54,874 bases of DNA from Haemophilus sp. C1 (GTDB taxonomy: Bacteria > Pseudomonadota > Gammaproteobacteria > Enterobacterales > Pasteurellaceae): assembly GCF_001276515.1 (NCBI RefSeq), contig NZ_LDVZ01000013.1, positions 1 through 54,874 of the forward strand, given 5' to 3'. The position numbers and the translations under genes are program-made. The notes under the pieces are model-generated. The model was not told where the DNA came from. It saw only the letters and a program-made list of their open reading frames with translations, and made no database searches. Positions 1 to 54,874 of the stretch are shown piece after piece; the stretch's first letter is position 1; each line of letters starts with the position of its first letter.

Positions 1-11
1 ACAATCCTTTA

Positions 12-60
12 AATAACAGTCTAACTTTTTGGGGTCAGATCAAAATAACCGCACTTTTTA
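12..60 (-). mobile_element. Outer end of an IS150-type (IS3 family) element, with flanking uptake signal
   Basis: Read on the minus strand, this stretch is an uptake signal core, then TTTTGATCTG, then ACCCCAAAAAGTTAGACT. It matches the repeat at the other end of the window (54816-54874), with a 1-base gap and a few substitutions. The form resembles the terminal inverted repeat of the IS150 group of the IS3 family (CTGCACCC...GTTGGAC). The element itself would lie to the left, outside the window, so no transposase is visible here. Because both window ends are outward-facing copies of one repeat, the window may be a contig that stopped in this repeat (inference). Confidence 0.55.
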
Positions 61-105
61 ATTAATGACAGTTTATGAATTAATCTATATAAATGGGAAA
101 ATGTC

Positions 106-957
106 TTAGTGAGCAAGCACCTGTTTCACTGCTACATCCAATCCTGCAGTTGGACGGCCAAGCAATTTCTCAAGGATTTTGTCTTCTGAGAATAATGCAC
201 CGTTTGACGCATCTACATCCCATTGTGCGATTAAGCCTGCAAAGCCTTCATCTAATCCTGCTTGCACAAGTGCTGCGGCATAATCTGCTGCAAGAATATC
301 CACGTAAGGGATATCTTTACCTGTTTGTTTGCTGATTTCTGCGGCAAGATCAGATAATGCCCAGCTGGTTGATCCGGCAAGCTCGTAAGTTTGGTTTTCA
401 TGGCCTTCACCTAAAGCCACATTTACGGCCGCTTCTGCAAGTTCTGCGCGAAGTACGGAGGAAATTTTGCCGTTTTTTGCCGAACCGTAGAAAGCATTGT
501 TCGCTAATGCTGCCGGAATTGAAGCTGTGTAGTTCTCTGTGTACCAGCCATTGCGTAAAATCGTATAAGTGATGCCGGAGGCTTTTAATGCGGCTTCGGT
601 TGCAACGTGTTCACCGGCAAGGGATTTCACAGTATTGTCGTTGGTGGCGCCGAGTAAGCTGGTGTAGATAATATGTTTCACACCTGCTTTTTTTGCCGCT
701 TCAATCACGTTGTTGTGCTGTACAAAACGCTGACCGATTTCATTGCTTGACACCAAAATTAACGTATCCACGCCTTGTAATGCCTCTACTTGCCCTTTTG
801 TTTTTGAATAATCAAATTTGCGGGCTGCTGCTCCTGAAATTTTTCCTGGAGAGCGTACAAGCGCGATGACGTTTGCTTGCTTTGCTTTTAATAAGTCTAA
901 TGCGATTGCGCCAAATTGACCTGTTGCACCAGTAATTGCGATAGTTTTAGTAGTCAT
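106..957 (-). CDS. qorB: NAD(P)H-dependent quinone oxidoreductase, QorB/YtfG-like
   Basis: 283 aa, NmrA-like atypical short-chain dehydrogenase. The N-terminus has a Rossmann fold with the dinucleotide-binding motif GATGQFG at residues 10-16. The lack of a classical YxxxK catalytic pair fits the NmrA/QorB type. The family reduces quinones with NADPH in the cytosol. An AAGGA ribosome site precedes the ATG at 957. The gene is divergent from a HxlR-family regulator, the same arrangement as E. coli ytfG/ytfH, which supports the assignment more than the sequence alone. Substrate is not shown by the sequence; another NmrA-type sensor or reductase is possible. Confidence 0.8.
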   Translation of the reverse strand: MTTKTIAITGATGQFGAIALDLLKAKQANVIALVRSPGKISGAAARKFDYSKTKGQVEALQGVDTLILVSSNEIGQRFVQHNNVIEAAKKAGVKHIIYTSLLGATNDNTVKSLAGEHVATEAALKASGITYTILRNGWYTENYTASIPAALANNAFYGSAKNGKISSVLRAELAEAAVNVALGEGHENQTYELAGSTSWALSDLAAEISKQTGKDIPYVDILAADYAAALVQAGLDEGFAGLIAQWDVDASNGALFSEDKILEKLLGRPTAGLDVAVKQVLAH

Positions 958-1122
958 GATATTTTCCTTCTTGTTAAGTTGAAATGATATTTGAACATTT
1001 GATTGTTCGCTTGATGTGGCGTATTATATTTTAAAACTTCCTTTTAGGAAGTACTTATAAAAATGTAAGTTTTGGAAAATTTAAAAATATTTTTTAATTA
1101 ATTGATTTATAAGGAATTAAAA

Positions 1123-1482
1123 ATGGAAAAAATTTTTGATCGGGGTAATGTATTGGCTTCAGCTTGTCCATCTCGCCAAATTTTGCAACATTTAACCAGT
1201 CGTTGGGGTGCATTGGTATTAGTAAGTTTACATTCGGGCACCAAGCGTTTTAGTGAACTTCGCCGTGCTATTGATGGTGTTAGCGAACGTATGTTGACTA
1301 AAACCCTGCAGGAATTAGAAGCCGATGGGATGTTAATTCGTAAATCCTATAATACCGTGCCACCGCAAGTGGATTACACATTAACAGAATTTGGGGCTGA
1401 AGCTTCCAATAAGATGTTTGAGTTAGTGGATTGGTTGGAAACAAATTTGACAGGAATTTTGGCTGCAACAAAAAAACATTAA
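1123..1482 (+). CDS. qorR: HxlR-family redox-responsive transcriptional regulator, QorR/YtfH-like
   Basis: 119 aa winged-helix HxlR-family protein. I chose the ATG at 1123 because AAGGA at 1111-1115 is well spaced for it; an in-frame TTG at 1102 would add seven residues but has no ribosome site. A conserved-looking Cys15 lies just before the HTH (ACPSRQIL), the place where QorR/HypR-type members carry their thiol sensor. The recognition region spans roughly residues 45-75 ([16 protein letters not shown]). Divergence from qorB across 165 bp suggests it controls qorB and itself in response to disulfide or quinone stress, as in related pairs (inference). Confidence 0.8.
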
Positions 1483-1538
1483 GGAAATCTACCGCACTTT
1501 TAAGTAAAATAGCGCAATTTTTTAAAGAGATAATAAAT

Positions 1539-2150
1539 ATGAAAGCCAAATTAGTCAGTTTACTTGCGCAAGCAAATATAAAAATAAGTGATAAACAAAT
1601 TCAGCAGTTGATTGATCTTGTCAATTTACTCAATAAATGGAATAAAGCTTATAATTTGACGTCAGTTCGTGATCCACAAGAAATGTTAGTCAAACATATT
1701 TTAGATAGTCTTGTTGTAAGCCCTTATTTACAAGGCGATCGTTTCATCGATGTCGGTACAGGCCCTGGCTTGCCTGGTCTACCTTTAGCAATTATTAATC
1801 CTTCTAAACAATTTGTTCTCCTTGATAGTTTAGGCAAACGTATTAGTTTTATTAGAAATGCAGTACGTGAGCTTGGGCTCACTAATGTAACGCCTGTTTT
1901 GAGTCGAGTAGAAGAATATCAACCTGAAGATAAATTTGATGGCGTATTAAGTCGCGCTTTTGCTTCGTTAAAAGATATGACTGAGTGGTGCCATCATTTA
2001 CCCAAAGAAAACGGTCATTTTTATTCATTAAAAGGTATTTATCAGGAAGATGAAATTAATGAATTGAATGAAAAATATACTATTCAAGAAGTGATTGAAT
2101 TACATGTTCCAGAACTTATAGGTGAACGACATTTAATCGTTTTGCGTTAA
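1539..2150 (+). CDS. rsmG: 16S rRNA (guanine527-N7)-methyltransferase RsmG
   Basis: 203 aa. RsmG (GidB) methylates N7 of G527 in 16S rRNA using SAM; loss gives low-level streptomycin resistance in other bacteria. The SAM site is visible as [11 protein letters not shown] around residues 72-82, and the family signature [11 protein letters not shown] lies near 32-42. The ATG at 1539 is used because it gives the usual family length (about 205 aa); the frame is open upstream, but the extra 36 residues are non-conserved and overlap qorR. It lies directly upstream of the atp operon, the classic gidB-atp order. Confidence 0.95.
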
Positions 2151-2218
2151 ATAGTTACAATTTTGTAAAAAATTTTCTAAAAGTGTGATTTAGTTAACGT
2201 TTTTCAGTGCTTTTTAAG

Positions 2219-2246
2219 TTGAATCTAATTTGATCAAATGTATAAT
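2219..2246 (+). promoter_or_regulatory. Predicted sigma-70 promoter of the atp operon
   Basis: TTGAAT at 2219-2224, a 16-base spacer, and a perfect TATAAT at 2241-2246, 24 bp before the atpI start. It lies in the 119-bp gap after rsmG, so the atp genes can be transcribed independently of rsmG. Confidence 0.7.
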
Positions 2247-2269
2247 TAGGGCGTTTTAAGGTTTTAAAA

Positions 2270-2644
2270 ATGTCGAGAATTGTACAACAAGCGAAAGTTC
2301 AGTATCAAAAAGCTATTTTTATTGAAATAGTCATTATGCTGCTATTGGCTTGTTTTTTTGCTTTATGGCAAATGAAAAGTGCGCTTGATTTTTTATTCGG
2401 ATTTCTTTCGGCATTAATTCCTTTTGGTGTTTTTGTGTATGTGGTTTTTTATAGAAAACAACATTTAGCCACAAAATTAACCGCACTTTATAAAGGAGAA
2501 GCAATAAAGTTTGTTCTAACCATTGTTTTTATTAGTATTTCATTTAAATACTTTTCGGTTACAAATTTTATTATTTTTTTTAGTGGTTTTTTTATTGCAT
2601 TAATGTTGAATAATTTAGTTCCATTTTTGCTTCGCCGAATTTGA
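2270..2644 (+). CDS. atpI: ATP synthase assembly protein AtpI
   Basis: 124 aa, very hydrophobic, with about four membrane segments (near residues 17-34, 37-58, 76-96 and 99-118). AtpI helps assemble the c-ring of F1Fo ATP synthase and is not part of the finished enzyme. Identification rests on size, topology and its position as first gene of the atp operon. An uptake signal lies inside the gene (about 2482-2490). Sequence conservation in this family is low, so context carries much of the weight. Confidence 0.88.
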   Translation: MSRIVQQAKVQYQKAIFIEIVIMLLLACFFALWQMKSALDFLFGFLSALIPFGVFVYVVFYRKQHLATKLTALYKGEAIKFVLTIVFISISFKYFSVTNFIIFFSGFFIALMLNNLVPFLLRRI

Positions 2645-2662
2645 TTTTTATACTTGTACTAA

Positions 2663-3460
<798 letters not shown>

Positions 3461-3497
3461 TCATTTTTTATTAACCGGCTCTAGGGCTAAAACTTAA

Positions 3498-3770
<273 letters not shown>

Positions 3771-3819
3771 TCACCTTATTTGCTTATCAACGTAAAACAA
3801 GCATAGTAAGGAGGACGTT

Positions 3820-4290
3820 GTGAATTTAAATGCAACATTGATTGGTCAACTTATCGCATTCGCACTTTTTGTGTGGTTTTGCATGAAGTTTGTTTGGCCA
3901 CCAATTATTAATGCGATTGAAACACGTCAAAGCCAAATTGCGAACGCTTTAGCGTCAGCTGAAGCAGCTAAAAAAGAGCAAGCAGATACGAAAAATCTTG
4001 TTGAACAAGAACTTTCAGCTGCAAAATTACAAGCTCAAGAGATTTTAGATGCTGCGAATAAACGTCGCAATGAAGTATTAGACGAAGTGAAGGCAGAAGC
4101 CGAAGAACTAAAAGCAAAAATTATTGCTCAAGGTTATGCAGAAGTAGAAGCAGAACGTAAACGTGTTCAAGAAGAATTACGTCTTAAAGTGGCTTCATTG
4201 GCAGTGGCTGGTGCTGAGAAAATTGTGGGTCGTTCTATTGATGAAGCGGCAAACAATGACATTATTGATAAATTAGTTGCAGAGTTATAA
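3820..4290 (+). CDS. atpF: F1Fo ATP synthase subunit b
   Basis: 156 aa. One N-terminal membrane helix (about residues 5-25) is followed by a long charged Ala/Glu/Lys-rich coiled coil that forms the peripheral stalk. The start is GTG at 3820, marked by a near-perfect AAGGAGG at 3808-3814; the next ATG is three codons in. Length equals the E. coli protein. Confidence 0.96.
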
Positions 4291-4302
4291 GAGGCTTAGC
4301 TT

Positions 4303-4836
4303 ATGTCAGAATTAACTACAATAGCTCGCCCTTATGCAAAAGCTGCATTCGACTTTGCCATTGAACAAAGTGCGGTCGAAAAATGGACTGAAATGTTAGG
4401 TTTTGCTGCAGCCGTAGCTGAAGATGAAACGGTAAAAGCTTACTTAAGTAGTTCTCTTTCTGCACAGAAATTAGCTGATACAGTAATTTCTATTTGTGGC
4501 GAACAATTGGATCAATATGGGCAAAATCTTATTCGGTTAATGGCTGAAAATAAGCGTTTGAGTGCTATTCCTGCGGTGTTTGAAGAATTTAAACATCACG
4601 TAGAGGAGCACCAAGCTATTGCAGAAGTTGAAGTAACGTCTGCGCAACCATTGAATGCAACACAAATCGAAAAAATTGCAGCTGTAATGGAAAAAAGATT
4701 AGCTCGCAAAGTGAAATTAAATTGCAACGTGGATAACGCACTTATTGCTGGTGTGATTATTCGTACTGAAGACTTTGTGATTGACGGAAGTAGCCGTGGG
4801 CAACTTACTCGTCTCGCAAATGAGTTGCAATTATAA
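4303..4836 (+). CDS. atpH: F1Fo ATP synthase subunit delta
   Basis: 177 aa (E. coli 177). Delta joins the top of F1 to the b stalk. The N-terminal helical domain starts with the typical [14 protein letters not shown], and the C-terminal [15 protein letters not shown] is the family signature for delta/OSCP. An uptake signal core lies at 4368-4376 and encodes QSAVE without disturbing the frame. It is 12 bp behind atpF. Confidence 0.96.
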
Positions 4837-4848
4837 GAGGAATACAAG

Positions 4849-6390
4849 ATGCAACTAAATTCAACTGAAATTAGTGAATTGATTAAAAAACGCATCGCTC
4901 AATTCGACGTGGTCAGTGAAGCGCGTAATACAGGGACAATTGTTTCTGTAAGCGATGGTATTATTCGCATCCACGGTTTAAGCGATGTAATGCAAGGTGA
5001 AATGATCGCCTTACCAGGTAATCGTTATGCGATGGCACTTAACCTTGAACGTGATTCTGTTGGTGCTGTAGTTATGGGACCTTACGCAGATTTAGCGGAA
5101 GGTATGGAAGTTCAATGTACAGGTCGTATTCTTGAAGTACCCGTTGGTCGTGGTTTATTAGGTCGTGTAGTTAATACGCTTGGTCAACCAATCGATGGTA
5201 AAGGCGAAATTGAAAATGATGGCTTCTCACCAGTAGAAGTGATTGCGCCAGGCGTTATCGATCGTCGTTCTGTTGATCAACCTGTTCAAACCGGTTACAA
5301 AGCCGTTGACTCAATGGTGCCAATCGGTCGTGGTCAACGTGAATTAATCATCGGTGACCGTCAAACTGGTAAAACTGCGTTAGCAATTGACGCTATTATT
5401 AACCAACGTAATTCAGGTATTAAATGTATCTATGTTGCGATTGGTCAAAAAGCCTCTACTATCGCAAACGTCGTGCGTAAATTAGAAGAACATGGTGCGC
5501 TTGCAAATACTATCGTGGTAGCCGCATCTGCATCTGAATCAGCAGCGTTACAATATTTAGCACCTTATGCTGGTTGTGCGATGGGTGAATATTTCCGTGA
5601 TCGCGGTGAAGATGCGTTAATTGTTTATGATGATTTATCAAAACAAGCCGTAGCTTATCGTCAAATTTCATTATTATTACGTCGTCCACCAGGTCGTGAA
5701 GCCTATCCAGGTGATGTGTTCTATTTACATTCTCGTTTACTAGAACGTGCTTCTCGTGTAAACGAAGATTACGTAGAAAAATTCACTAAAGGTGAAGTAA
5801 AAGGAAAAACTGGTTCTTTAACCGCACTTCCGATTATTGAAACCCAAGCGGGTGACGTTTCAGCATTCGTTCCAACCAACGTAATTTCTATTACCGACGG
5901 TCAGATCTTCTTAGAATCTAACTTGTTTAACTCAGGTATTCGTCCTGCGGTAAACCCAGGTATTTCGGTATCTCGTGTTGGTGGTTCAGCGCAAACTAAA
6001 GTTATTAAGAAATTAGCGGGTGGTATTCGTACCGCGCTAGCTCAATATCGTGAATTAGCAGCTTTTGCACAGTTTGCATCAGATCTAGATGATGCGACTC
6101 GTAAGCAACTTTCTCACGGTGAAAAAGTAACTGAATTATTAAAACAAAAACAATTTGCTCCATTATCTGTTGCAGAACAAGCGGTTGTATTGTTTGCTGT
6201 TGAATTTGGTTATTTGGATGACGTGGAATTATCAAAAATTGCAAGTTTTGAGACCGCACTTTTAGATTATTCTAACCGTAATCACGCTGAGTTTATGCAA
6301 GAGCTTACTAAAACCGGTAACTATAATGACGAAATCAAAGATACATTAAAAGGTATTTTAGATAGTTTTAAAGCGAATAGTGCTTGGTAG
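4849..6390 (+). CDS. atpA: F1Fo ATP synthase subunit alpha
   Basis: 513 aa, the same length as E. coli AtpA. The Walker A motif GDRQTGKT is at residues 169-176. The N-terminal beta-barrel, central nucleotide-binding domain and C-terminal helical domain follow in order, ending DSFKANSAW. Alpha alternates with beta in the F1 hexamer and binds non-catalytic nucleotide. Two uptake signal cores lie within the gene (about 5821 and 6253); both are read as Thr-Ala-Leu. Confidence 0.98.
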
Positions 6391-6405
6391 TAACGGAGAG
6401 ATAAG

Positions 6406-8665
<2,260 letters not shown>

Positions 8666-8695
8666 TCACTTCAAGTCATTTGAAGGAGAACAAAA

Positions 8696-9124
8696 ATGGC
8701 GACATTTAATTTAACAATAGTAAGCGCAGAGCGAAAAATCTTTGAAGGTGAAGTAAAACAAATCCAAGCAACAGGTGTTGAGGGGGAATTAGGTATTCTC
8801 CCTGGACACACTCCATTGCTAACGGCAATTAAGCCAGGGATTGTTAAATTTACCCTTCAAGATGGAAATGAAGAAGTTATCTATGTTTCCGGTGGTTTTT
8901 TAGAGGTTCAACCAAATATTGTTACGGTACTAGCAGATGTTGCTATCCGTGGTAGTGAATTAGATGCTGATCGTATTCGCGAAGCAAAACGTAAAGCTGA
9001 AGAGAACATTGTATCTCATGCATCAGATGTAGATCATGATTTACTGGTTGCGAAACTTTCTAAAGAGTTAGCAAAACTTCGAGCTTATGAATTGACTGAA
9101 AAACTCTTGAAAACAAGACGGTAA
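8696..9124 (+). CDS. atpC: F1Fo ATP synthase subunit epsilon
   Basis: 142 aa. The N-terminal beta-sandwich carries the signature [13 protein letters not shown] (about residues 31-43). The C-terminal two-helix domain, the ATP-sensing brake of F1, runs from about residue 88. Last gene of the operon; a hairpin made of two facing uptake signals follows within 5 bases. Confidence 0.97.
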
Positions 9125-9127
9125 TAA

Positions 9128-9157
9128 AAAAGTGCGGTGAATTTTCACCGCACTTTT
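9128..9157. terminator. Bidirectional terminator built from two inverted uptake signals
   Basis: A 14-bp perfect stem (9128-9141 with 9144-9157) and a 2-base tip are formed by two facing AAGTGCGGT cores, with A and T runs on the two sides. It separates convergent atpC and the lipoprotein gene, so it can stop transcription from both. Confidence 0.85.
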
Positions 9158-9167
9158 GTTTGTTTCC

Positions 9168-10031
9168 TTAAAGAAATTTTACATAGTTATTTCGCTTAAA
9201 TTCAGGTCTAAATAATTCTTCTAGTTGCCCAAAATAGAGAAACAAATCCTGCTCTCCTGCTGCGTAAGGGGCGATTTCATAGACATCATAAATAAAATGT
9301 ACACCTCTAGAATCTAAGTAAATATTGTTCGATAAATTAAAACTATCGGCTCCAATAAGAGGTTCATATTCCTTGTTGCTATTATTATATTGCTCCCATA
9401 AAAGTTTTTTTACTTTCGGTAAATCTTTTTCATTAAATAAATCATTTAATGTCAAAATATGGCGTGTAGTTAGATCAATCGTGAAATAGCGATTGCCTTC
9501 TATCCCATGAGCACCACCTTCATAGTCATAATAACTAATAGCAAAGGTTGCAAGTTTTTCTTTTTGTGCAATAAAATCTGTCCACATAGAATGAGAAATA
9601 CCAAAAGATGGTGTTTCTTTTACTTCTTTTTTGTCTTCCTCAAAAGCTGTTTGATAACGTGCTACAAATTGTTCTCGAGAAATATTTTTCGTTTCTTCGT
9701 TTTCAGTCAATTTTTTCCATAACAAATCATTAAGCCAATCAATATTGGTTTTTATTGTTGAAATTGAATACTCAATTTTGGTTTCTTCAGGCTGATAATC
9801 TTCTTTCGATTTAGGATGTTTAATAATTTCAGATTGATTAAATATTTCATCATTTTCCACAAAAATTGCTGGGATTGTTTTTTCTATTTGATCTTTTAAT
9901 TTGGTATTTTCAGCACTGAGTTGTGCTACTGTTTGATTTAGTTGTTTTATTTTTGCTTCAGTATCTTTATCTTGGCAGCCTGTGAGTAAAATGACAGAAC
10001 TAATTAATGCAGCAACGAGCGTTTTTTTCAT
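9168..10031 (-). CDS. Lipoprotein with RsiV-like DUF3298 domain
   Basis: 287 aa. A lipoprotein signal peptide ends in the lipobox LLTGC with Cys19. Residues about 22-50 form a heptad-like coiled coil (KIKQLNQTVAQLSAEN). The C-terminal half has the pattern of the DUF3298/DUF4163 family: YDYEGGAHGIEG, then LTLNDLF, then a final VYEIAPYAAGEQ. These domains occur in RsiV-type sigma-factor inhibitors and in free-standing envelope lipoproteins; there is no sigma factor nearby, so the second is more likely here. It starts 18 bp after the selB stop on the same strand and may be co-transcribed. Function unknown. Confidence 0.75.
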   Translation of the reverse strand: MKKTLVAALISSVILLTGCQDKDTEAKIKQLNQTVAQLSAENTKLKDQIEKTIPAIFVENDEIFNQSEIIKHPKSKEDYQPEETKIEYSISTIKTNIDWLNDLLWKKLTENEETKNISREQFVARYQTAFEEDKKEVKETPSFGISHSMWTDFIAQKEKLATFAISYYDYEGGAHGIEGNRYFTIDLTTRHILTLNDLFNEKDLPKVKKLLWEQYNNSNKEYEPLIGADSFNLSNNIYLDSRGVHFIYDVYEIAPYAAGEQDLFLYFGQLEELFRPEFKRNNYVKFL

Positions 10032-10049
10032 ACTTTTTTCCTTTTTAAA

Positions 10050-11909
10050 TCATAAATCAAAAACATTCTTATCGCGTAGAATATGGTCATTGCCTTTGCG
10101 ACGTAAAAATCCCATTCGGTCGAAATATTCCATCAGTTGAACGGTAAGTTTGCGCCCGAAATTCAATTTATCACGTACTTCATTTACTGAAACTTTTCCT
10201 TTTTCTTCTGCGATTTGTTTGATGAGCCTTGCATAAGCATAGATGGTTTCAGTTAAGAAAAATCTATCTTTCACGATTGGTGTGAGGTAACCCAATTTCC
10301 CAGCTTTATACATAAAATTACGCATGGTACTTTCATCCATCGCCAAGGCATTCGCCATATCACGTACCCAAATGGCTTGACCTTGGGCTTTTTCAAATTC
10401 ATCGAGTACACTTGACCAATATTTTTGTTCTTCTTGGCTAAATTGGATTTTATGTTCGGGTAAGTGAAGCCAACCTCGAGTTTGCTGTAATCTTCCCTCT
10501 TCTAACATTTCATCAATAAAATGATTGATCAAGTTTTCAGGCTGGTGTAAGGCAGTCATTCGATATAATCTGGCTTTGCTTACACCAAGTTGATCATTAT
10601 GTTGCTCGTGATAAGTATTAAGTGCGGTTAAAATTTGCTGTGTTTTTTCTTGTACGTAATTAGTATTAAAACACCAATCTTGATAACGTACGGCGTCCCG
10701 CTCGGCGAGTGCTTTATCTAATTGCAAGGAAGTCAGTTGCTCCGTCCACATTAATTGGCGTGCTGTTGTCGCATTATGTTGAAGGGTAAGTGCAATACGT
10801 TGCGAAGCATTTTCTGCCAATGCTAAATTCGCTAAGAAATTTAACCGCACTTCAGTACGTTTATGACGTTTTGGCGAGTTAATTTCCAATACTCGTGCGC
10901 CAGCAATTAAGGTTTTTGTATCGCCACTGCGTAAAATAAGTTTGTCTCCAAAAGCCAAGAATAATGGCGAATCTAATATGATTTCAGCTAAAGTGCGGTC
11001 ATTTTTTGCGACATTTTTTCCTTGTAATAAGGTGAGCTTACCCGTAGTGCGACTCGCTCCGTGATAAATATGCACAGGTTGGCTTTCATTTAATGGTACT
11101 TCAGCCAAAATTTGTACACTGATGCGATCTGTTGGTGAGAGGGGTTCATCCTGCAATAACCAATCGCCTCGTTTCATTGGTATGCGGTCTAAATCAGCAT
11201 TTAAATTTAACGCTAAACGCTGCCCTGCAATACCTTGTTCGCTTGATGTATTTTGTGCGTGAATCGCTTTTACACGAACTTTCTGTCCAGTGGAAAGGTA
11301 AAGTTCATCGTTTACTTTCACTGTTCCTGAAAAGGCTGTGCCTGTCACGACGGTGCCCGCCCCTTTTACACTGAATACTCGGTCTATTGCGTAGCGGAAA
11401 GGTTTCTGGGTATCAGCCAATTCAGGTAGATTAGCTAAGTAATGACGTAATTCACTAATGCCTTGTCCCGTTTCTGCTGAGGTAACGAAGTAGTTAGCAT
11501 CGCGTAAAAAACTATAATCTTGTTTAATTGTTTGGATTAACGATTCTATTTGCTCTGAATTTGTACGATCTGCTTTTGTGATGACAACAATAATTTCGTG
11601 GAATTGAAGTTGGCGTAATATCGCTAAATGTTCTTTTGTTTGCGCTGCAACGCCTTCATCCGCAGCCACAATTAACATTGCATAATGCACACCACCTAAG
11701 CCCGCCAGCATGTTTGACAAGAATTTCTCGTGCCCCGGCACATCAATAAAGCCAAGAACTTTATTTTCTAAAGGCAGATAGGCATACCCCAAATCAATGG
11801 TCATACCGCGTTTTTTTTCTTCTGGTAAATGCGCGGTACTTGTGCCAGTTAATGCTTTTAATAATGCTGTTTTGCCGTGATCAACGTGACCTGAAGTGAC
11901 AATAATCAT
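10050..11909 (-). CDS. selB: Selenocysteine-specific elongation factor SelB
   Basis: 619 aa (E. coli 614). SelB replaces EF-Tu for Sec-tRNA and binds the SECIS hairpin of selenoprotein mRNAs. Visible: G1 motif GHVDHGKT at residues 7-14, G3 motif DVPGHE from residue 56, EF-Tu-like domains II-III, and four C-terminal winged-helix modules after about residue 370 for SECIS binding. The start overlaps the selA stop by 4 bp (ATGA), implying translational coupling. Confidence 0.97.
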
Positions 11910-24310: not shown

Positions 24311-24625
24311 AAAAAAGTGCGGTAAATTTTATTTGTATCCAAAAAGCTAGACTAAACAAATTAACCATTGAGATGAAGATTTTATTATGGGTAAACATTA
24401 CACAATCAAATTTAAAATAGGTTATCCAACCAATTCTGAATAGGAAAATGAGTATCAACAGATACTGCTAGTTTTTATAATAAATAAGATCAATGGTTCA
24501 AACCAAGGCTGGCGTATCAAATGGCAACTTATCGATGTTCAACTGAAATTAAAAGGACTGAATTCGACACAATATCATCATCAGTCCTTAATTAAATAGT
24601 CTAGGTTTTGTGGCAAATCAATTTA
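24311..24625 (+). mobile_element. Internally deleted IS150-type (IS3 family) remnant with both terminal repeats
   Basis: This 360-bp gap between convergent glpC and asnA has no intact gene. The left end is an uptake signal (24315-24323), then AATTTTATTTG, then ATCCAAAAAGCTAGACT. The right end, read on the minus strand from the asnA stop codon, is TAAATTGATTTGCCACAAAA then CCTAGACT. Both align with the repeats at the window ends. Inside, an ATG at about 24387 begins MGKHYTIKFK and stops after 18 codons, like the first residues of an IS3-family OrfA. The interior is degenerate and too short for a transposase. Confidence 0.6.
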
Positions 24626-40846: not shown

Positions 40847-40856
40847 GGAAAAAGCT

Positions 40857-42207: not shown

Positions 42208-42396
42208 AAAAGTGTGGTGAATTTTGGATCTATATCCCAAAATTGAATAGTTAATCAAATACTGAGTTCCGTATTGTACGGGACTCAGCTTTTTTATAAG
42301 TCTATTAATGGGACAAAATAGAGTTTATTTTGCCCAACTCGAAATTCTGTCACATCGGTGCGAACTGTTTTTGGGGAAGCTCAAGGTTCACCGCAC
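42208..42396. mobile_element. Degenerate IS150-type remnant between hslU and gph
   Basis: Left end on the plus strand: AAAAGTGTGGTGAATTTTGG, then ATCTATATCCCAAAATTGAA, a decayed copy of the 54816 repeat. The right end, on the minus strand from about 42396, is an intact uptake signal, then GAACCTTGAGCTTCCCC, then AAAAACAGTT, a weaker match. About 190 bp with no ORF; it also contains the hslU terminator. The right-end match is tentative. Confidence 0.45.
42262..42295 (+). terminator. hslVU terminator
   Basis: CTGAGTTCCGTA (42262-42273) pairs with TACGGGACTCAG (42277-42288), one G-U, followed by CTTTTTT. Confidence 0.9.
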
Positions 42397-42416
42397 TTTT
42401 TTGTTAGATAAGAAAC

Positions 42417-43957: not shown

Positions 43958-46381
<2,424 letters not shown>

Positions 46382-46475
46382 TTATCTCATTCTTTTGTAA
46401 ATAAAAATTGGGCGGGATTATAGCAAAAAATCGCCGTTTTGGCGATGCTTTTCGGGAAAGGAAAGATATAAAAAA

Positions 46476-46495
46476 AGGGCGAATAATCTCGCCCT
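46476..46495 (-). terminator. tex terminator
   Basis: AGGGCGA (46476-46482) pairs with TCGCCCT (46489-46495), followed by a run of T on the minus strand, 9 bases after the tex stop. Confidence 0.82.
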
Positions 46496-46503
46496 ATAAC
46501 TTG

Positions 46504-48822
46504 TTATTTTTTCCAATTTTTTAGCGCATCAGCAAAGGCATTGCCCATCGCATTATTACCTCTTGAATTACGCTCCTCTCGTTGCGTATTTCCACGAGGT
46601 CTTGCAGATAAAGTGCGGTCAGATTTGCCATCATTTTTGACCGCACTTTCATCTAATCGCATCGTCAATGCAATGCGTTTACGTGGCACATCCACGTCTA
46701 ACACTTTAACTTTTACAATGTTGCCTGTTTTTACCACTTGATGGGGATCTTCCACGAATTTATCGCTTAATGATGAAATATGTACTAAACCATCTTGATG
46801 AACACCAATATCCACAAATGCGCCAAAATTGGTTACATTAGTAACAGTTCCTTCTAAAATCATTCCAGATTTCAAATCCGTGATTTCTTCCACGCCTTCT
46901 GCGAATACAGCAGTTTTAAACTCACCACGCGGATCGCGCCCTGGTTTTCCCAATTCTTTGAAAATATCTTGAATGGTCGGTAAACCAAATTGCTCATCAA
47001 TAAATTGTTTAGCATCAAGCTGACGTACCACACCCGCATTCCCCATTAAATCTTGGATAGATTGTGCAGTGGCTTGCAAGATTTTTTCGACCACAGGGTA
47101 AGCTTCTGGGTGAACACCTGAAGCATCAAGTGGATTTTTCCCGCCTGCAATACGCATAAAGCCTGCACATTGCTCAAAAGCTTTTGGTCCTAAACGCGGC
47201 ACTTTTTTCAATTCGCTGCGACTTTCAAAACGGCCATTTTCATCACGATATTCCACAATGTTTTGCGCTAAGGTTTTTGTCATCCCCGCTACGCGAGCAA
47301 GCAATGGCGTGGATGCCGTATTCAAATCCACACCTACTGCGTTTACACAGTCTTCCACCACAGCATCGAGTTTACGCGCAAGTTGGGTCTGGTTTACATC
47401 GTGCTGATATTGCCCTACGCCAATGGCTTTTGGTTCGATTTTCACTAACTCCGCCAACGGATCTTGTAAACGACGAGCAATAGACACCGCACCACGTAAA
47501 GACACATCTAAGTTCGGGAATTCATTTGCGGCAAATTCAGAAGCAGAATAAACGGATGCGCCCGCTTCACTCACTACAACAGTTTGCGGTTTATTTTCTT
47601 TGATTTCTTTAATCACTTCTTTCGCAAAACGTTCGGTTTCACGAGAAGCCGTACCGTTACCAATGGCAATTAATTCCACGTTATGTTTGCGGATTAAGCT
47701 GAAAATCGCCACTTGTGCTTCAGCTTCACGCCCCGTGTGTGGATAAATGGTGGCGGTATCTAATAATTTACCTGTGTTATCCACCACTGCAACTTTAACG
47801 CCTGTACGCAAGCCTGGGTCCAAGCCCATGGTACTTTTCGCGCCAGCGGGTGCTGCCATTAAAAGTGCGGTCAGATTTCGAGCGAAAACATCAATGGCTT
47901 CTTCTTCCGCTTTTTCACGTAAACTTGCCATTAATTCGGTTTCTAAATGCAACGAAACTTTGATTTTCCACGTCCATGCAATCACTTGTTCACGCCATTT
48001 ATCCGCTGGTTGACCCGTGAAACGGGCATCTAAATAATCACGAATAATCTCTTCACAATAGCTTTGGCGACTACCCTCTTCTGCATCAGGATCAGCATTT
48101 AAGCTTAATTGTAAAATGCCCTCATTACGTCCACGGAACATGGCTAATGCACGGTGAGAAGGTACATTTTTCAATAATTCTTGGTGGTCGAAATAATCTT
48201 GGAATTTTGCGCCTTCCGTTTCTTTGCCTTCGATCACTTTAGATACAATAACCGCATTTTTCGCTAAATAATCACGGACTTTAGCTAATAAACCCGCATC
48301 TTCAGCAAAACGTTCCATTAAAATATAGCGTGCACCGTCTAACGCAGCTTTGCTATCAGCTACGCCTTTTTCAGCATCAACAAAGGAAAGTGCGGTTGAT
48401 TCTGGATCATTTTTTGGCTCGTTCCAAAGTAAATCAGCCAATGGCTCAAGACCCGCTTCAATCGCAATTTGCCCTTTAGTACGACGTTTCGGTTTGTATG
48501 GCAAATACAAATCTTCTAATTCGGTTTTGCTTTGTGTCGCATGGATTTTGTCACGCAATTCATCGGTCAATTTCCCTTGCTCTTCAATAGATTTCAAAAT
48601 GGTTTGACGACGATCTTCTAATTCACGTAAATAAATTAAACGGGTTTCAAAATGACGAAGTTGGGTGTCATCTAAGCCACCGGTAGCTTCTTTACGATAA
48701 CGGGCGATAAATGGAATGGTGTTGCCATCATCTAATAATTGAATGGCGGCGAGGATTTGTTGGGGTTGAACGGTTAATTCTGCCGCAATAATTTGGCTAA
48801 TTTGTTGATTTAACATTGTCAT
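46504..48822 (-). CDS. tex: Tex-family RNA-binding transcription accessory protein (YhgF)
   Basis: 772 aa (E. coli YhgF 773). N-terminal HTH-rich Tex domain, YqgF/RNase-H-like fold around [19 protein letters not shown], helix-hairpin-helix stretch near [20 protein letters not shown], and a C-terminal S1 domain ([20 protein letters not shown], about residue 647 on). The S1 domain binds RNA; role in transcription and translation. The first of two close in-frame ATGs is preceded by AAGAAG. Four uptake signal cores in the gene. Confidence 0.95.
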
Positions 48823-48923
48823 ACTTCTTTGTTATGAAAGGATTCGAGAAAAAACGGGGATAGAATACTGGTTTTAAGCTGTTGGCTCAAATATAATTCG
48901 AAAAACTTTCTTTTATTTTTATT

Positions 48924-49400
48924 ATGGCAAAATCAAATTATATTACCCGTCAAGGCTGGAATGAGCTTGACCAAGAACTCAAGTTTTTGTGGAAAGAAGA
49001 ACGCCCCAAAGTTACCCAAGCAGTCTCAGATGCAGCCGCGCTAGGCGATCGTAGCGAAAATGCCGAATATATTTATGGTAAACGTCGCTTACGTGAAATT
49101 GATCGTCGTGTACGTTTTTTAACTAAAAGATTGGAAGTACTACAAATTGTCGATTACAACCCAAAGCAAGAGGGAAAAATTTTCTTTGGCGCATGGGTAG
49201 AATTGGAAAATGAAGATGGTGAAATTAAGCAATATCGTATCGTCGGTTGCGATGAATTTGCCCCTGCAAAAAATTGGATATCCATTGATTCCCCAGTTGC
49301 TCGAGCTTTAATCGGAAAAACATTAGACGATGAAGTGCGGGTAGAAACGCCCTCAGGTTTCATCACACTTTATGTGAATAAAATTTGGTATGAGAAATAA
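48924..49400 (+). CDS. greB: Transcript cleavage factor GreB
   Basis: 158 aa. N-terminal antiparallel coiled coil with the acidic tip (SENAEYIYGKRRL) and a C-terminal FKBP-like domain. Rescues backtracked RNA polymerase. The GreB rather than GreA assignment rests on the starting YITRQGWNELDQELKFLWKEERP. Confidence 0.95.
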   Translation: MAKSNYITRQGWNELDQELKFLWKEERPKVTQAVSDAAALGDRSENAEYIYGKRRLREIDRRVRFLTKRLEVLQIVDYNPKQEGKIFFGAWVELENEDGEIKQYRIVGCDEFAPAKNWISIDSPVARALIGKTLDDEVRVETPSGFITLYVNKIWYEK

Positions 49401-49469
49401 CTCGGAAAAATAAAAGATAGTGAATATCTAAGTACAAAGAGAAAACTAATAGGCTAGATATAAACTATC

Positions 49470-50087
49470 TTACTTGCCTCTTTCCTTATTAGCAGCAAAA
49501 TCAGCACCTTTTGCAAGCATTCTCAACTGCAAAATCACACGAGCTTTAAGTTGCTCACGCTCAGCTTTACTCATATCTAAAGCATTCGCCCCAGCAGTGA
49601 ATACGATTGTTACGATGCCTTCCGCTTGAACATAAGCAACATATTGCGAATATTGATGTTTGTAGGAAATATATTCAGCTAACTCATCAACAAAATGCTT
49701 AATTTCACGTGCTGCCGCAGTACGAAAAGCTTGAGATGTTCCAGAACTTTCGCGTAATAGCAAGCGAAAAACGTTCGTACTGTTAGTGATAAATTCAAAA
49801 AATGTATCCACAGAAACAGAAATAACGCTACCGCCAGCATCAATACGTTTACGCGCTTGACGCATTAATTGGCGCAACATCAAACCAGCCTCATCCACCA
49901 TTTCTAAGCCGAGTTCATCCATATCGCTAAAATGACGATAGAAAGATGTAGGCGCAATTCCAGCCTCGCGCGCAACCTCTCGCAAACTCAAATTAGAAAA
50001 ACTTTTTTCTGCGCTAAGTTGATTAAATGCCGCATCCACTAAAGCTCGACGAGTCTTTTCTTTTTGAACAGCACGAACACCAGCCAT
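49470..50087 (-). CDS. fabR: TetR-family repressor FabR
   Basis: 205 aa. N-terminal HTH ([20 protein letters not shown]) and C-terminal ligand domain matching FabR, the repressor of unsaturated fatty acid genes fabA/fabB, over its length ([10 protein letters not shown] start; [21 protein letters not shown]). It overlaps the oxyR stop by one base (TAATG), so the two are one transcript. In E. coli oxyR and fabR are also close. Confidence 0.93.
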
Positions 50088-50992
50088 TATTTCAACCCAC
50101 CTAGAATAGATTTAACTTTATCGCTGACCGCACTCGCCACACGCTCGTAACGATTACGCAATGGTGAACCAGGACGATAAACTAACGCAATAGTGCGTGA
50201 TGGCTCAGGCGAATAACAAGGAATATATTTCACACCTTTTCGCGTGCCTTCATTCAGTACCGCTAATTCAGGCATAAAAGTGATACCTGCGTTTGCTGCC
50301 ACCATATTGCGCAAAGTTTCAAGGCTAGTCGCTTGGAAATGCGAATTTTCTTTTGCGCCAGCAGTGAAACAATAATCTAGCGCTTGATTACGTAAACAAT
50401 GACCATCATCAAGCATTAACATTTCTTGACCATTTAATTGGTTCATTGGAAGTTTACTTTCTTGAGCCCAAGGATGATGCTCTGATACGGCGAGTAACAT
50501 TTTCTCGTTGAAAATAGGTACTTCAATAAAAGCCTCAGTTTCTGGAACAGTGGCAACGATGGCACAATCTAAACGCCCCGTTTCCAATTGTTCTAATAAT
50601 TGATGCGTTTGCGCTTCATAAAGAAAAACTTCTAAATCAGGGAATGCTGCTTTTAACGTTGGCACAATATAAGGGAGCAAATAAGGACCAACTGTTGGAA
50701 TTAAACCGATGTGTAATGGCCCGGTCATTTCTTTACCTTGATTGCTCGCCATTTCTTTCAATAATTTTACTTCTCGAAGAACTGTGCGAGCCTGATCAAC
50801 CAATAGCATTCCAGATTGAGTAAACAACACTTTACGACTAGTGCGCTCTAACAAGATAATACCGAGCTCATCTTCTAATTTACGAATTTGACCACTTAAT
50901 GTTGGTTGGCTCACATTACAAGAATCGGCAGCACGGCGGAAATGTTTATATTCAGATAAGGCAACAAGATATTCTAGATCACGGATATTCAT
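50087..50992 (-). CDS. oxyR: Hydrogen peroxide sensor OxyR
   Basis: 301 aa LysR-family regulator. N-terminal winged HTH ([22 protein letters not shown]). The peroxide-sensing pair is conserved: Cys199 and Cys208 in [15 protein letters not shown], at the E. coli positions. Divergent from the peroxiredoxin-glutaredoxin gene, which it very likely activates. Confidence 0.97.
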
Positions 50993-51114
50993 GAGATTTT
51001 CCCTATAGAAAAATTCAATTAAAAGAATAGAATTAATTGATTATGACTATATCATAATTTTCCCTATAATACAGCGCATAAAATTTAAATTAACAACCAA
51101 TAGGAGAAAAAACG
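50993..51114 (+). promoter_or_regulatory. oxyR/peroxiredoxin divergent promoter region
   Basis: A TATAAT -10 box at 51065-51070 for the rightward gene, with only TATGAC at the -35 position (51042-51047, spacer 17). Several ATAG and CTAT quartets (near 51003, 51027, 51048 and 51064) are of the kind OxyR contacts. A poor -35 and OxyR half-sites suit activator-dependent expression (inference). Confidence 0.5.
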
Positions 51115-51840
51115 ATGTCTAATATGGAAGGAAAAAAAGTCCCTCAAGTGACATTCCGCACTCGTCAGGGTGATAAATGGGTTGATGTAACTACCTCTGA
51201 ATTATTTGATAACAAAACAGTGATCGTGTTCTCATTACCAGGCGCATTCACTCCAACTTGCTCATCATCACACTTACCACGTTACAACGAATTAGCGCCA
51301 GTATTCAAAAAATACGGTGTAGACGATATTCTCGTTGTATCTGTAAATGATACTTTCGTAATGAACGCATGGAAAGAAGATGAAAAATCTGAAAACATCA
51401 CTTTCATTCCAGATGGTAATGGTGAATTTACCGAAGGTATGGGTATGTTAGTTGGCAAAGAAGATTTAGGTTTCGGTAAACGTTCATGGCGTTATTCTAT
51501 GCTTGTAAAAAACGGCGTAGTTGAAAAAATGTTTATCGAACCAAACGAACCAGGCGATCCGTTCAAAGTATCAGATGCTGACACTATGTTGAAATACCTT
51601 GCACCACAACACCAAGTGCAAGAGTCTATTTCAATCTTCACAAAACCTGGCTGTCCTTTCTGTGCAAAAGCAAAACAACTTTTACACGATAAAGGCTTAA
51701 GCTTCGAAGAAATCGTATTAGGTCACGATGCAACAATCGTGAGCGTACGTGCAGTTTCAGGTCGCACTACTGTTCCACAAGTATTTATCGGTGGTAAACA
51801 CATTGGCGGTAGCGACGATTTAGAAAAATACTTTGCATAA
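51115..51840 (+). CDS. Hybrid peroxiredoxin-glutaredoxin
   Basis: 241 aa fusion of a Prx5-type peroxiredoxin (1-165) and a glutaredoxin (170-241). Peroxidatic Cys49 in [13 protein letters not shown]; the Grx motif CPFC is Cys180/Cys183. Reduces peroxides with electrons from glutathione without a separate reductase. This fusion has been studied in H. influenzae, with these same cysteine numbers as I recall. Divergent from oxyR. Confidence 0.96.
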
Positions 51841-51882
51841 GCAGGCAAGTATTTAGCTGATTATTATTTGGGAATGTAATTT

Positions 51883-51905
51883 AAAGGGCGCATTTAGCGC
51901 CCTTT
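51883..51905. terminator. Terminator between peroxiredoxin gene and slyX
   Basis: AAAGGGCGC (51883-51891) and GCGCCCTTT (51897-51905) with a 5-base loop and a T run. Suits both convergent genes. Confidence 0.85.
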
Positions 51906-51931
51906 TCATTTGTACGATTTTATTGCAAAAT

Positions 51932-52153
51932 TTAATAATGTGGCGGGGGTGTTTCTTCAGATTGGCTTGCAATGTTAGACGGTTGAAAATCTTTTAATTT
52001 ATTTGCCATATAACGTAATTGGACTTGCATTTTATCAATATCAAATTGCTGTTGAACTAAAGCGTGATTTAATTCATCTAATAACTGTTCCTGAAATGCA
52101 ATTTTCGTTTCAAGTTCTTCGATGCGATTTTCTAACATTTGTTGAATTTGCAT
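51932..52153 (-). CDS. slyX: SlyX family protein
   Basis: 73 aa (E. coli 72). Nearly all coiled coil ([24 protein letters not shown]), with a Pro-rich tail ending PPPHY, the family signature. Function unknown; the gene is usually beside fkpA/slyD, as here. Confidence 0.92.
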
Positions 52154-52250
52154 AAATTTTCTCTAAATTCTAAAAAAAAGTTGAGAATAGATAGAAAGCA
52201 ATTTAATCTATTCCTCGTATTATTCCATTCATTATAAAGGATTAACTCAT

Positions 52251-52976
52251 ATGTTAAAAATTCAAAAATTATCTATCGCAGCATTAATGGTAAGTGCGGT
52301 GATTTCTGGCCAAGTTTTTGCAGAAGATAACGCATTCGATGAAAAAGCAGCATCTTATGCTGTAGGTACGTTAATGGGCAGTCAAATGAAAGATCTGGTT
52401 GATTCCCATAAAGATGTTATCAAATATGATAATGCTCGTATTTTAGATGGCTTAAAAGATGCTTTAGAAGGCAAAGTGGATGTGCGTAAAGATGAAAAAA
52501 TCCAAAAAACCTTAGAATCTATTGAAGCAAAATTAGCGGCTGCATCAAAAGCAAAAGCAGAAGCGATTGCTAAACAAGCAAAAGAAGAAGGCGATAAATT
52601 CCGCGCTGAATTTGCTAAAGGTAAAGATGTAAAAACTACGCAATCTGGTTTAATGTACAAAATTGAAAACCCTGGTAAAGGCGATGCAATTAAAGCAACA
52701 GATATTGTTAAAGTACATTACACGGGTAAATTACCAAATGGAAAAGTATTTGATAGCTCCGTAGAACGCGGTCAACCTGTAGAGTTTCAACTTGATCAAG
52801 TAATTAAAGGCTGGACAGAAGGTCTTCAATTAGTGAAAAAAGGCGGAAAAATTCAATTAGTTATTGCACCTGAATTAGGATATGGCGAACAAGGTGCTGG
52901 CGCATCTATTCCACCAAATTCAACATTAATTTTTGATGTAGAAGTATTAGACGTCAATCCAAAATCTGCAAAATAA
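52251..52976 (+). CDS. fkpA: Periplasmic peptidyl-prolyl isomerase FkpA
   Basis: 241 aa. Sec signal peptide cut after Ala24 (GQVFA). A helical dimerisation domain (about 27-125) is followed by an FKBP domain (about 140-235: VHYTGKLPNGKVFDSS, GWTEGLQL, YGEQGAG.SIPPNSTLIFDVEVL). Folding helper in the periplasm. An uptake signal in the signal-peptide coding region reads Ser-Ala-Val. Confidence 0.94.
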   Translation: MLKIQKLSIAALMVSAVISGQVFAEDNAFDEKAASYAVGTLMGSQMKDLVDSHKDVIKYDNARILDGLKDALEGKVDVRKDEKIQKTLESIEAKLAAASKAKAEAIAKQAKEEGDKFRAEFAKGKDVKTTQSGLMYKIENPGKGDAIKATDIVKVHYTGKLPNGKVFDSSVERGQPVEFQLDQVIKGWTEGLQLVKKGGKIQLVIAPELGYGEQGAGASIPPNSTLIFDVEVLDVNPKSAK

Positions 52977-52990
52977 TTAATGAGTTTAAT

Positions 52991-53018
52991 AGCGCGCGTT
53001 GTTTAACGCGTGCTTTTT
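52991..53018 (+). terminator. REP-like hairpin acting as fkpA terminator
   Basis: AGCGCGCGTT-gttt-AACGCGTGCT (52991-53014) with one G-U, followed by TTTTT. Same sequence family as the REP hairpins at 33592 and 34178. Confidence 0.75.
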
Positions 53019-53065
53019 ATTATAAAAAACGAGCAGAATTTTTACCGCACTTTTAACCTAAAACT

Positions 53066-53731
53066 ATGACATTAAACGATAAATATCCTTTCACTGACGA
53101 AGATCACGCTATCATAAATTCCTACAAAGCGGTCGTTGATGGTGTAAGTGCACTGATTGGCGAACACTGCGAAATCGTGCTTCATTCTCTAGAAGATATT
53201 GAACATTCTGCTATTTGTATTTCCAACGGACATAACACTAATCGACAAGTTGGTTCGCCAATCACCGATCTTGCCTTACGTTCGCTACGAAATATGCAAA
53301 GCGAAAGTGTTTCAAAGCCTTATTTTACACGAGCAAAAGGCAGCGTACTGATGAAATCAGTTACTATCGCTATTCGTAATAAAACTCAACGTATTATTGG
53401 TTTGCTTTGTATCAATATCAATTTAGATGTACCCGTGTCTCAATTTTTGCAATGCTTTATGCCAACGGAGCATACGAATGAAACATCTTCGGTTAATTTT
53501 GCGAGTTCTGTGGAAGACTTGGTTGCGCAGACTATTGAAAAAACCATAGAAGAAGTCAATGCAGATCTCTCTGTTGCCAATAATACTAAAAACCGACAAA
53601 TCGTCCTTTCTCTTTACGAAAAAGGTATTTTTGATATTAAAGATGCGATTAATTTAGTCGCAGAACGCTTAGATATTTCCCGACATACGGTTTACCTGTA
53701 CATCCGTCAAATCAAACAAGAGCAAGAATAA
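53066..53731 (+). CDS. yheO: YheO-type PAS/HTH regulator
   Basis: 221 aa. N-terminal YheO-like PAS domain (roughly 12-115; GEHCEIVLHSLEDIEHSAICI) and C-terminal HTH (YEKGIFDIKDAINLVAERLDISRHTVYLYI). Ligand unknown. It overlaps tusD by one base (TAATG), as in the yheO-tusDCB order of E. coli. Confidence 0.9.
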   Translation: MTLNDKYPFTDEDHAIINSYKAVVDGVSALIGEHCEIVLHSLEDIEHSAICISNGHNTNRQVGSPITDLALRSLRNMQSESVSKPYFTRAKGSVLMKSVTIAIRNKTQRIIGLLCININLDVPVSQFLQCFMPTEHTNETSSVNFASSVEDLVAQTIEKTIEEVNADLSVANNTKNRQIVLSLYEKGIFDIKDAINLVAERLDISRHTVYLYIRQIKQEQE

Positions 53732-54111
53732 TGCGCTATGTTATCGCCGTCAAAAGCCCCATTTACGGAAAACAAGGGGCGTTTTTAGCTTATCAATTTG
53801 CAGAAGCCTTAATCAAAAAAGGACATGAAATCTCACAGATTTTTTTCTTTCAAGATGGGGTAACTAATGGAAACGCATTGGTATATCCAGCCAATGATGA
53901 AGTTAATTTACAAAAACATTGGCAAATGTTTTCCATCACCCACAATGTTCCTTTGCATTTATGTGTTGCAGCATCTCAACGACGAGGTGTCGTCGATAAC
54001 TTAACCACATCAACCATAGATCACTACAATCTTGCAGAGGGATTCATAATTGCAGGCCTTGGTGAATTTATAGTAGCAAGTTTAAAAGCAGATCGAGTGA
54101 TAACTCTATGA
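53731..54111 (+). CDS. tusD: Sulfur relay protein TusD
   Basis: 126 aa, DsrE family. The sulfur-carrying Cys78 (PLHLCVAASQRRG) is at the position of the E. coli active cysteine. Takes persulfide sulfur via TusA and passes it through TusE to MnmA for 2-thiolation of tRNA uridine 34. Overlaps tusC by 4 bp. Confidence 0.95.
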   Translation: MRYVIAVKSPIYGKQGAFLAYQFAEALIKKGHEISQIFFFQDGVTNGNALVYPANDEVNLQKHWQMFSITHNVPLHLCVAASQRRGVVDNLTTSTIDHYNLAEGFIIAGLGEFIVASLKADRVITL

Positions 54112-54467
54112 AAATAGCCTTTTTATTTCGCACATCGCCACATGGCACATCTATTTCACGAGAAGGCTTAGATACAATTCTTGCCGCAACAGCTTTTTGT
54201 GATCCAGATGACATTGGCGTATTTTTTATAGATGATGGCGTATTAAATCTTATCAACGCTCAACAACCTGAACTTATTCAACAGAAAGACTTCATTAGAA
54301 CCTTTAAATTATTAGATTTATATGATGTAGAACAACGCTTTATCTGCACAGCGTCTTTACAGAAATTTAAGCTAGACGATAAGCAACTCATCCTATCTTG
54401 TGAAAAAATTGACCGCTCTTTATTGATAGAAAAACTTAATCAAGCAGAAAAATTGTTTACTTTCTAA
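54108..54467 (+). CDS. tusC: Sulfur relay protein TusC
   Basis: 119 aa, the same length as E. coli TusC. DsrF-type subunit of the TusBCD hexamer (AFLFRTSPHGTSISREGLD). ATGA overlap with tusD. An AGAGCGGTC-type variant in reverse lies in the gene (near 54411). Confidence 0.93.
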   Translation: MKIAFLFRTSPHGTSISREGLDTILAATAFCDPDDIGVFFIDDGVLNLINAQQPELIQQKDFIRTFKLLDLYDVEQRFICTASLQKFKLDDKQLILSCEKIDRSLLIEKLNQAEKLFTF

Positions 54468-54475
54468 GGAATATT

Positions 54476-54763
54476 ATGCTCTATACATTTTCCCTATCAG
54501 ATTACCCTAAAACTGAACTAAATGATTACTTTTCATACATTACAGAAAAAGATGCGGTAATATTATGGCAAGATGGTGTGTTATTGGCAGTTAAATATCC
54601 TGATTATTTTGCCAAATGTAAAGGGAATTGCATGATATTGAAACAAGATATTTTAGCAAGAAATCTCTCCGCACTTTTACCTCAAAGCAGCAAAATAAAA
54701 TTAATTTCAATAGAAGAACTTGTTGGAATCACTGAAAATTATTCACCGCAGCTATCACTATAA
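54476..54763 (+). CDS. tusB: Sulfur relay protein TusB
   Basis: 95 aa, the same length as E. coli TusB. DsrH-type subunit (LYTFSLSDYPKTEL; ITEKDAVILWQDGVLLAV). AAGGA lies before the ATG. In E. coli rpsL follows; here the window ends at an IS-type repeat instead. Confidence 0.92.
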   Translation: MLYTFSLSDYPKTELNDYFSYITEKDAVILWQDGVLLAVKYPDYFAKCKGNCMILKQDILARNLSALLPQSSKIKLISIEELVGITENYSPQLSL

Positions 54764-54815
54764 AAATCAAATAATCTAGTAAATACTTAAGCGAAATATC
54801 AGACGCAGAATAAAC

Positions 54816-54874
54816 AAAAAGTGCGGTGAATTTTGATCTGCACCCCAAAAGTTGGACTCAACAAACCAACAATT
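54816..54874 (+). mobile_element. Outer end of an IS150-type (IS3 family) element, with flanking uptake signal
   Basis: Uptake signal core at 54819-54827, then GAATTTTGATCTGCACCCCA, then AAAGTTGGACT. The last part matches the IS150-group terminal repeat form (CTGCACCC...GTTGGAC). The element would continue to the right, beyond the window. It is the mirror of the repeat at 12-60. Confidence 0.6.

Follow-up and report, generated by a model that had tools for sequence, protein, structure and literature searches.

Evidence that an IS3-family insertion sequence targets the loops of inverted uptake-signal pairs in Haemophilus

Introduction

We analysed a 54,874-nt stretch of DNA from Haemophilus sp. 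C1 (contig NZ_LDVZ01000013.1), hereafter the window, to whose full length all position numbers refer, in which ends of an insertion sequence (IS) that we call IS-A adjoin DNA-uptake signals (USS). An earlier note on this DNA had described, at four places, a USS or close variant followed by (G)AATTTT and then by an IS end. We saw this arrangement at all four (sites 1 to 4), which proved to be two truncated IS-A copies at the window ends and two decayed copies inside it. The locus thus raises the question of whether the element brings the signal with it or inserts where signals already stand. In the Haemophilus genomes examined, IS-A very probably inserts in the loops of intrinsic-terminator hairpins, with a strong preference for inverted USS pairs (AAAGTGCGGTnAAATTTnACCGCACTTT). 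USS cores within one mismatch are common in the window (73 against 10.4 expected), so that their density alone is no evidence, and the evidence lies in their spacing from the element.

Identification of IS-A and selection of copies

IS-A is an IS3-family element of about 1.24 kb (the copies from genome G002 that were written out, two in number, measure 1243 and 1244 bp), with two long frames, orfA and orfB, in succession. OrfB matched NF033516 (transpos_IS3) at 315.9 bits (cut-off 160) and contains the PF00665 (rve/DDE integrase core) and PF13333 domains, and OrfA contains PF13518, a helix-turn-helix domain. Complete copies have TGATCTG tips at both ends, one base being altered in a few (TGATCGG in one G002 copy). 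Hallmarks of the IS3 family are TG...CA terminal inverted repeats, a duplication of 3-5 bp and an overlap of orfA and orfB with a -1 frameshift; the tips of IS-A resemble those of IS150, and the element may belong to that subgroup, subgroups being assigned by transposase phylogeny in ISfinder.

Relatives at an E-value of 1e-60 or better were present in at least 43 of 140 genomes of the family, among the matches listed (with up to 18 candidates scored per genome). We took 119 of the listed copies, a selection from 14 mostly multi-copy genomes, yielding 115 copies with both ends after L143, L187, L207 and L221 had been left out. The main IS-A set comprised 50 complete copies from G105, G102, G097 and G100, here called the H. 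parainfluenzae group (a probable affiliation, the first three sharing the genus of G100), and the OrfB proteins of this set were 93-98% identical to the query among the full-length matches listed.

Uptake signals at the ends of IS-A

Across the 50 copies, an inward-facing USS whose core ended 3-10 bp short of the tip was present at 54 of 100 ends when an exact match was required and at 77 when one mismatch was allowed. Control windows placed farther from the tips in these flanks gave 1 and 3 hits, respectively, in 2900; the flanks had been viewed before the range of 3-10 bp was chosen. In all 50 copies at least one end had such a USS (at most one mismatch); its distance from the tip was mostly 5-7 bp, and often both ends had one. 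Collapsing orthologous sites left 44, of which 34 had an exact USS at one or both ends, all 44 had one with at most one mismatch, and 25 had one with at most one mismatch at both ends. The best-conserved flank positions were those of an A-tract at -16 to -14, and a count of at least three A between -17 and -14 was reached by 95 of the 100 ends, compared with 277 of 2300 control positions (the A-tract positions having been picked from the flank profile). Chance association through USS density was ruled out by the spacing controls.

Empty sites and target duplications

For three insertions in G105, every one of the 25 IS-free orthologues read, all from the same genus (6, 10 and 9 per site), contained a USS dyad (for example GCGGTTAATTTTGACCGC), one of them (L347) with one mismatch in one arm. 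At the first of these sites the element is also present in two further genomes (L339 and L349); a match in G095 was left unread, and for G103 a match was obtained at just one site of the three. The four window sites gave a graded result. At site 3 the dyad was present in 7 of 7 IS-free orthologues, reading GCGGTGAATTTTCACCGC or GCGGTAAATTTTTACCGC, and at site 4 all 8 readable orthologues had an imperfect dyad (1-2 USS mismatches per arm), L300 (diverged) and L291 (which ends at a contig end) having been set aside. At site 1 four of six matching genomes had the dyad, three of them with one arm mismatch, the remaining genomes having a variant hairpin (L288) and a broken gene beside another IS end (G009). 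Site 2 showed the dyad in two of seven IS-free orthologues (L255 and L256), while three further genomes carry the relic. Comparison of copies with empty sites, the check proposed in the earlier note, therefore found the dyad in IS-free orthologues of each window site, but not in every genome. Because IS-free orthologues contain (G)AATTTT, this motif is the loop of the target and not part of the element, which starts at TGATCT. The note's second option, that the element inserts next to a USS, came close to what we found: it in fact lands between two, in dyads that are present at IS-free sites.

A duplication of 3-4 bp, located between the USS and the tip, was found in 44 of 50 IS-A copies, compared with 26.5% of mismatched pairs of flanks. 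The corresponding values were 7 of 8 against 39% in G135, 22 of 34 against 12.5% in G067, G062 and G023 together, and 16 of 22 against 7.4% in G046, G044, G047, G115 and G155 together. The control rates of IS-A and G135 are high, probably because their loops are AT-rich. A likeness test of own versus mismatched flank pairs in G105 and G102 (own medians 22 and 26; cross 24 and 22) tells nothing for IS-A, since all arms are USS-like.

Target preference

The target is a terminator-like hairpin. Among the 115 copies, 82 reached an inverted-repeat score of at least 16, compared with 2.9% of 690 control windows. When joined, the flanks folded at a median of -16.5 kcal/mol, the median for control windows being -8.2 kcal/mol. 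An inverted repeat was likewise found in 20 of the 39 copies without a USS, as in the plain terminator occupied at L204, where AAAAAGCCCCTTTTAAA and AAAAGGGGCTTTTTATT stand to the left and right of the IS; other USS-free relatives in ordinary terminators are L230, L235 and L237.

To place the use of USS arms against a background, we used a simple script to collect hairpins scored as intergenic terminators from 400 kb of G105 and counted GCGGT or its complement in them. For the IS sites, the criterion was a GCGGT no more than 24 bp from the tip, so that the two counts use different yardsticks. Of 84 background hairpins, 26 contained the motif (both arms 18, one arm 8, neither 58), compared with 48 of 50 IS-A sites (both arms 33, one arm 15, neither 2; Fisher test, p = 7e-15; for G105 alone, 17 of 17, p = 5e-8). 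IS-A is thus probably not merely using terminators at large. With 22 GCGGT dyads counted in the 400 kb, the G105 genome would contain some 120, of which about a tenth may be occupied. Insertions in opposite orientations, in two genomes, were found at two site clusters (L133/L161 and L130/L170).

Two different IS types, IS-A and a relative about 58-60% identical, seem to occupy the same terminator, AAAGGGCGATTAAAAACACTATGATTTTTAACCGCCCTTT, in two genomes, at L033 (G002) and L059 (G009).

We propose that the transposase reads the palindrome, through its A-tract, its GCGGT arm and its symmetry, as the target. Insertion into the loop of the hairpin duplicates 3-4 bp and parts the arms, so that beside each IS end there is an inward-facing USS, or an arm resembling one, at a distance of mostly 5-7 bp. 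Inward-facing hairpins at the ends of IS-A may then take over termination for the neighbouring genes, which would make the site harmless.

Alternative explanations

A number of observations weigh against the proposed targeting of USS dyads. Within the window, five of the seven IS-free orthologues of site 2 have a different sequence with no USS dyad at that point, no USS was found outside the right end of the site 2 relic, and no target duplication was seen at site 3. Two of the 50 IS-A copies lack an exact GCGGT arm. In the ten genomes outside the main set, a USS (at most one mismatch) at one or both ends was found in 7 of 8 copies of G135, 7 of 11 of G067, 4 of 7 of G062, 8 of 16 of G023 and 0 of 23 of G108, G115, G046, G044, G047 and G155 together. 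Hairpins were not found for L205, L206, L209 and L210 in G023, a genome whose copies are only loosely specific, and no inverted repeat was found in any of the 8 USS-free G023 copies, in 3 of 4 G155 copies or in the G108 copy.

The transposase could instead recognise any terminator-like hairpin or palindrome, USS dyads being merely a common kind in the host. We consider this possible but the less probable account: some relatives in G044, G046, G047, G062, G115 and G155 do occupy USS-free hairpins, but the share of GCGGT-type hairpins is far higher at IS-A sites than among the hairpins of G105, with the difference in yardsticks noted above.

More doubtful is an extended version of USS-dyad targeting, in which IS-A would be specialised on these dyads, with two bracketing USS, a third in orfB and its own replacement terminators, and would combine harmless insertion with spread by transformation. 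That the element travels well by natural transformation, as the earlier note had suggested, is plausible, and bracketing by USS may possibly raise such spread; in one host, however, USS occur at about 0.6 per kb, and at this density long fragments would usually carry one anyway.

Uptake could also act as a filter, USS-mediated import spreading USS-adjacent copies until they are over-represented. USS-dependent uptake is established knowledge, and most IS-A copies have a perfect USS inside orfB (IS position 633-634, as in L131), namely 17 of 17 in G105, 12 of 12 in G097, 11 of 18 in G102 and 2 of 3 in G100; in the G135 element, 64% identical, 8 of 8 copies have an internal USS at another position and in another orientation, and a check for perfect USS found no internal one in the copies of the other nine genomes. 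Uptake would, however, not require USS that flank the element on both sides, face inward and stand within 5-7 bp of its tips, and we regard this explanation as very unlikely. There is as little to recommend random insertion followed by selection that keeps only copies in intergenic terminators. Terminators would indeed be safe places, but selection of this kind would leave unexplained the base-level precision at both ends with an A-tract at fixed distance, the preference for GCGGT-type hairpins (48 of 50 against 26 of 84) and the occupation of the same terminator in both orientations. Finally, the earlier note's first option, a USS carried at the tip, would place the end of the mobile unit outside the USS and would account for the near-constant distance of the USS from both tips, but it is refuted, as the dyad is present in IS-free orthologues without the element, the target duplications fall between USS and tip, and none of the 23 copies in the six genomes named above has a USS there.

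Hairpins at the element ends

Both IS ends fold as inward-facing hairpins that are conserved across relatives (hand-picked sets of 10 and 9 sequences). Changes on both sides of a pair were found in 2 of 14 pairs of the left-end hairpin (GATCTGCACC...GGTGCAGATTTTTT) and in 5 of 21 pairs of the right-end hairpin, with fold z-scores of -5.1 and -3.3, respectively. Downstream of hslU, at site 3, a strong terminator-like hairpin (CTGAGTTCCGTATTGTACGGGACTCAG, then CTTTTTT) survives in the decayed right end (fold z-score of -4.86 for 42219-42300). These structures suggest that IS-A may replace the terminator that its insertion splits. The case for replacement consists of predicted folds and one retained relic hairpin, which counts against this part of the proposal, as does a simple terminator scan of L131 that flagged neither end hairpin (the left one exceeds the scan's loop limit of 8). 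In other IS, an end hairpin shields the transposase gene from outside transcripts, and by analogy the left hairpin could instead shield orfA.

Near position 1500 of L012 and L030 we observed palindromes of about 80 bp composed of a USS or variant, the IS left-end hairpin and a USS, which are perhaps IS remnants or small non-autonomous elements.

Relation to known insertion sequences

Insertion into extragenic palindromes has precedents. According to passages of PMC1525189, IS1397 and ISKpn1, also of the IS3 family, insert in palindromic extragenic units (repetitive extragenic palindromes, REP), a target choice attributed to the transposase. IS-A resembles them in family and in inserting within an extragenic palindrome, but its target is a USS dyad or ordinary terminator-like hairpin rather than a REP, and it resides in Haemophilus and in genomes from the same family. 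The IS-free sites were USS dyads, and relatives sit in terminator-like hairpins, so REP is not the unit here, although no search was aimed at REPs. Passages of PMC4923244 describe IS1272/TnSha1, of the IS1182 family, as inserting in stem-loops, many of them terminators and several confirmed to be so, in both orientations at one site, with deletion of part of the hairpin and no duplication. Unlike that element, IS-A keeps both arms, has a duplication of 3-4 bp and encodes an IS3-type transposase.

The target itself has been described: a passage of PMC1852404 reports USS in 17% to 29% of Pasteurellaceae terminators, and USS-dyad terminators of this kind are what IS-A occupies. The main text of that article contains no occurrence of 'insertion sequence' or of words in 'transpos'. 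No report of an insertion sequence targeting USS dyads was found among the titles and abstract openings listed by searches of an open-access library. As far as these listings show, an IS3-type element in the loop of USS-dyad terminators with both arms retained is new within the open-access literature searched.

The finding accounts for these IS copies adjoining USS and connects transposon target choice, transcription termination and DNA uptake, usually separate fields. By our estimate, about a hundred natural target dyads per genome are available for work on palindrome recognition by an IS3-type transposase, and whether the IS profits from its place between uptake signals becomes testable. Targeting of USS dyads may also explain contig breaks or rearrangements at USS in Haemophilus genomes.

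Layout of the window

The features of the four sites are collected in Table 1. Partner ends overlooked in the earlier note were found at site 2 (decayed right end, to 24620) and at site 3 (decayed left end, to 42383, beyond which a second inward-facing USS at 42390-42398 had also been overlooked). The site 2 relic aligned with IS copies at 77-83% around query positions 412-583 and is common to L245, L246 and L247, while the site 3 relic is also present in L265 (G004) and its hslU side in L266 (G008). The closest comparison genome has 39% of 31-letter words in common with the window, which is probably a contig broken at both ends by an IS repeated in the genome.

Table 1. Features of IS-A copies and their targets in the window
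Feature	Positions	Strand	Basis
IS-A right end, inner part lost at window edge	1-42	-	same sequence as right ends of L032 and L041
Site 1 target flank AAATA, 5 bp	43-47	-	window sequence
Site 1 inward-facing USS AAGTGCGGT	48-56	-	USS scan; IS-free orthologue L284 reads AAAAGTGCGGTAGATTTTCACCGCACTTTTT
Site 2 USS, left arm of target dyad	24315-24323	+	IS-free dyads in L255 and L256
Site 2 flank AAATTT	24324-24329	+	window sequence
Site 2 decayed IS-A, internally deleted: left-end relic, orfA start, right-end relic	24330-24620	+	
Site 3 USS variant AAGTGTGGT, downstream of hslU	42210-42218	+	full USS dyad in 7/7 IS-free orthologues
Site 3 flank GAATTT	42219-42224	+	window sequence
Site 3 decayed IS relic: right-end tip starts 42225, left-end tip stops 42383	42225-42383	-	
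Terminator-like hairpin kept in site 3 right-end relic	42262-42295	+	stem 42262-42288, then CTTTTTT
Site 3 second inward-facing USS (42390-42398) and flank	42384-42398	-	USS scan
Site 4 USS	54819-54827	+	imperfect IS-free dyads there in 8 genomes
Site 4 flank GAATTT	54828-54833	+	window sequence
Site 4 IS-A left end, truncated by window edge	54834-54874	+	24 tip bases match search pattern, 0 mismatches

Possible recombination between IS copies

Gene names (asnA, gph, hslU) were read from the sequence without a database search. In six genomes (L248-L253) asnA lies beside gph, with a USS dyad separating the two. In the window a distance of about 17.8 kb separates their ends, both of which abut IS relics (at 24621, site 2, and at 42384, site 3), an arrangement that fits recombination between IS copies.

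In G115, the left flank of one copy resembles the right flank of another for L223/L224 and perhaps L243/L244, and these flank pairs appear to have been swapped through recombination between IS copies.

The sister element IS-C

IS-C, a sister element with similar tips, was considered as a negative control and dropped as not clean, the outer IS-A flank windows being used instead. We retrieved 23 IS-C loci, of which 19 had both ends. At several of them an outward-facing USS or variant immediately adjoins the tip, and some (L353, L354, L366, L367 and L370) have an inward one on one side. At L356, L363, L368, L371 and L373 IS-C adjoins the outer edge of a USS or variant (junction AAG/TGCGGT), unlike the position taken by IS-A.

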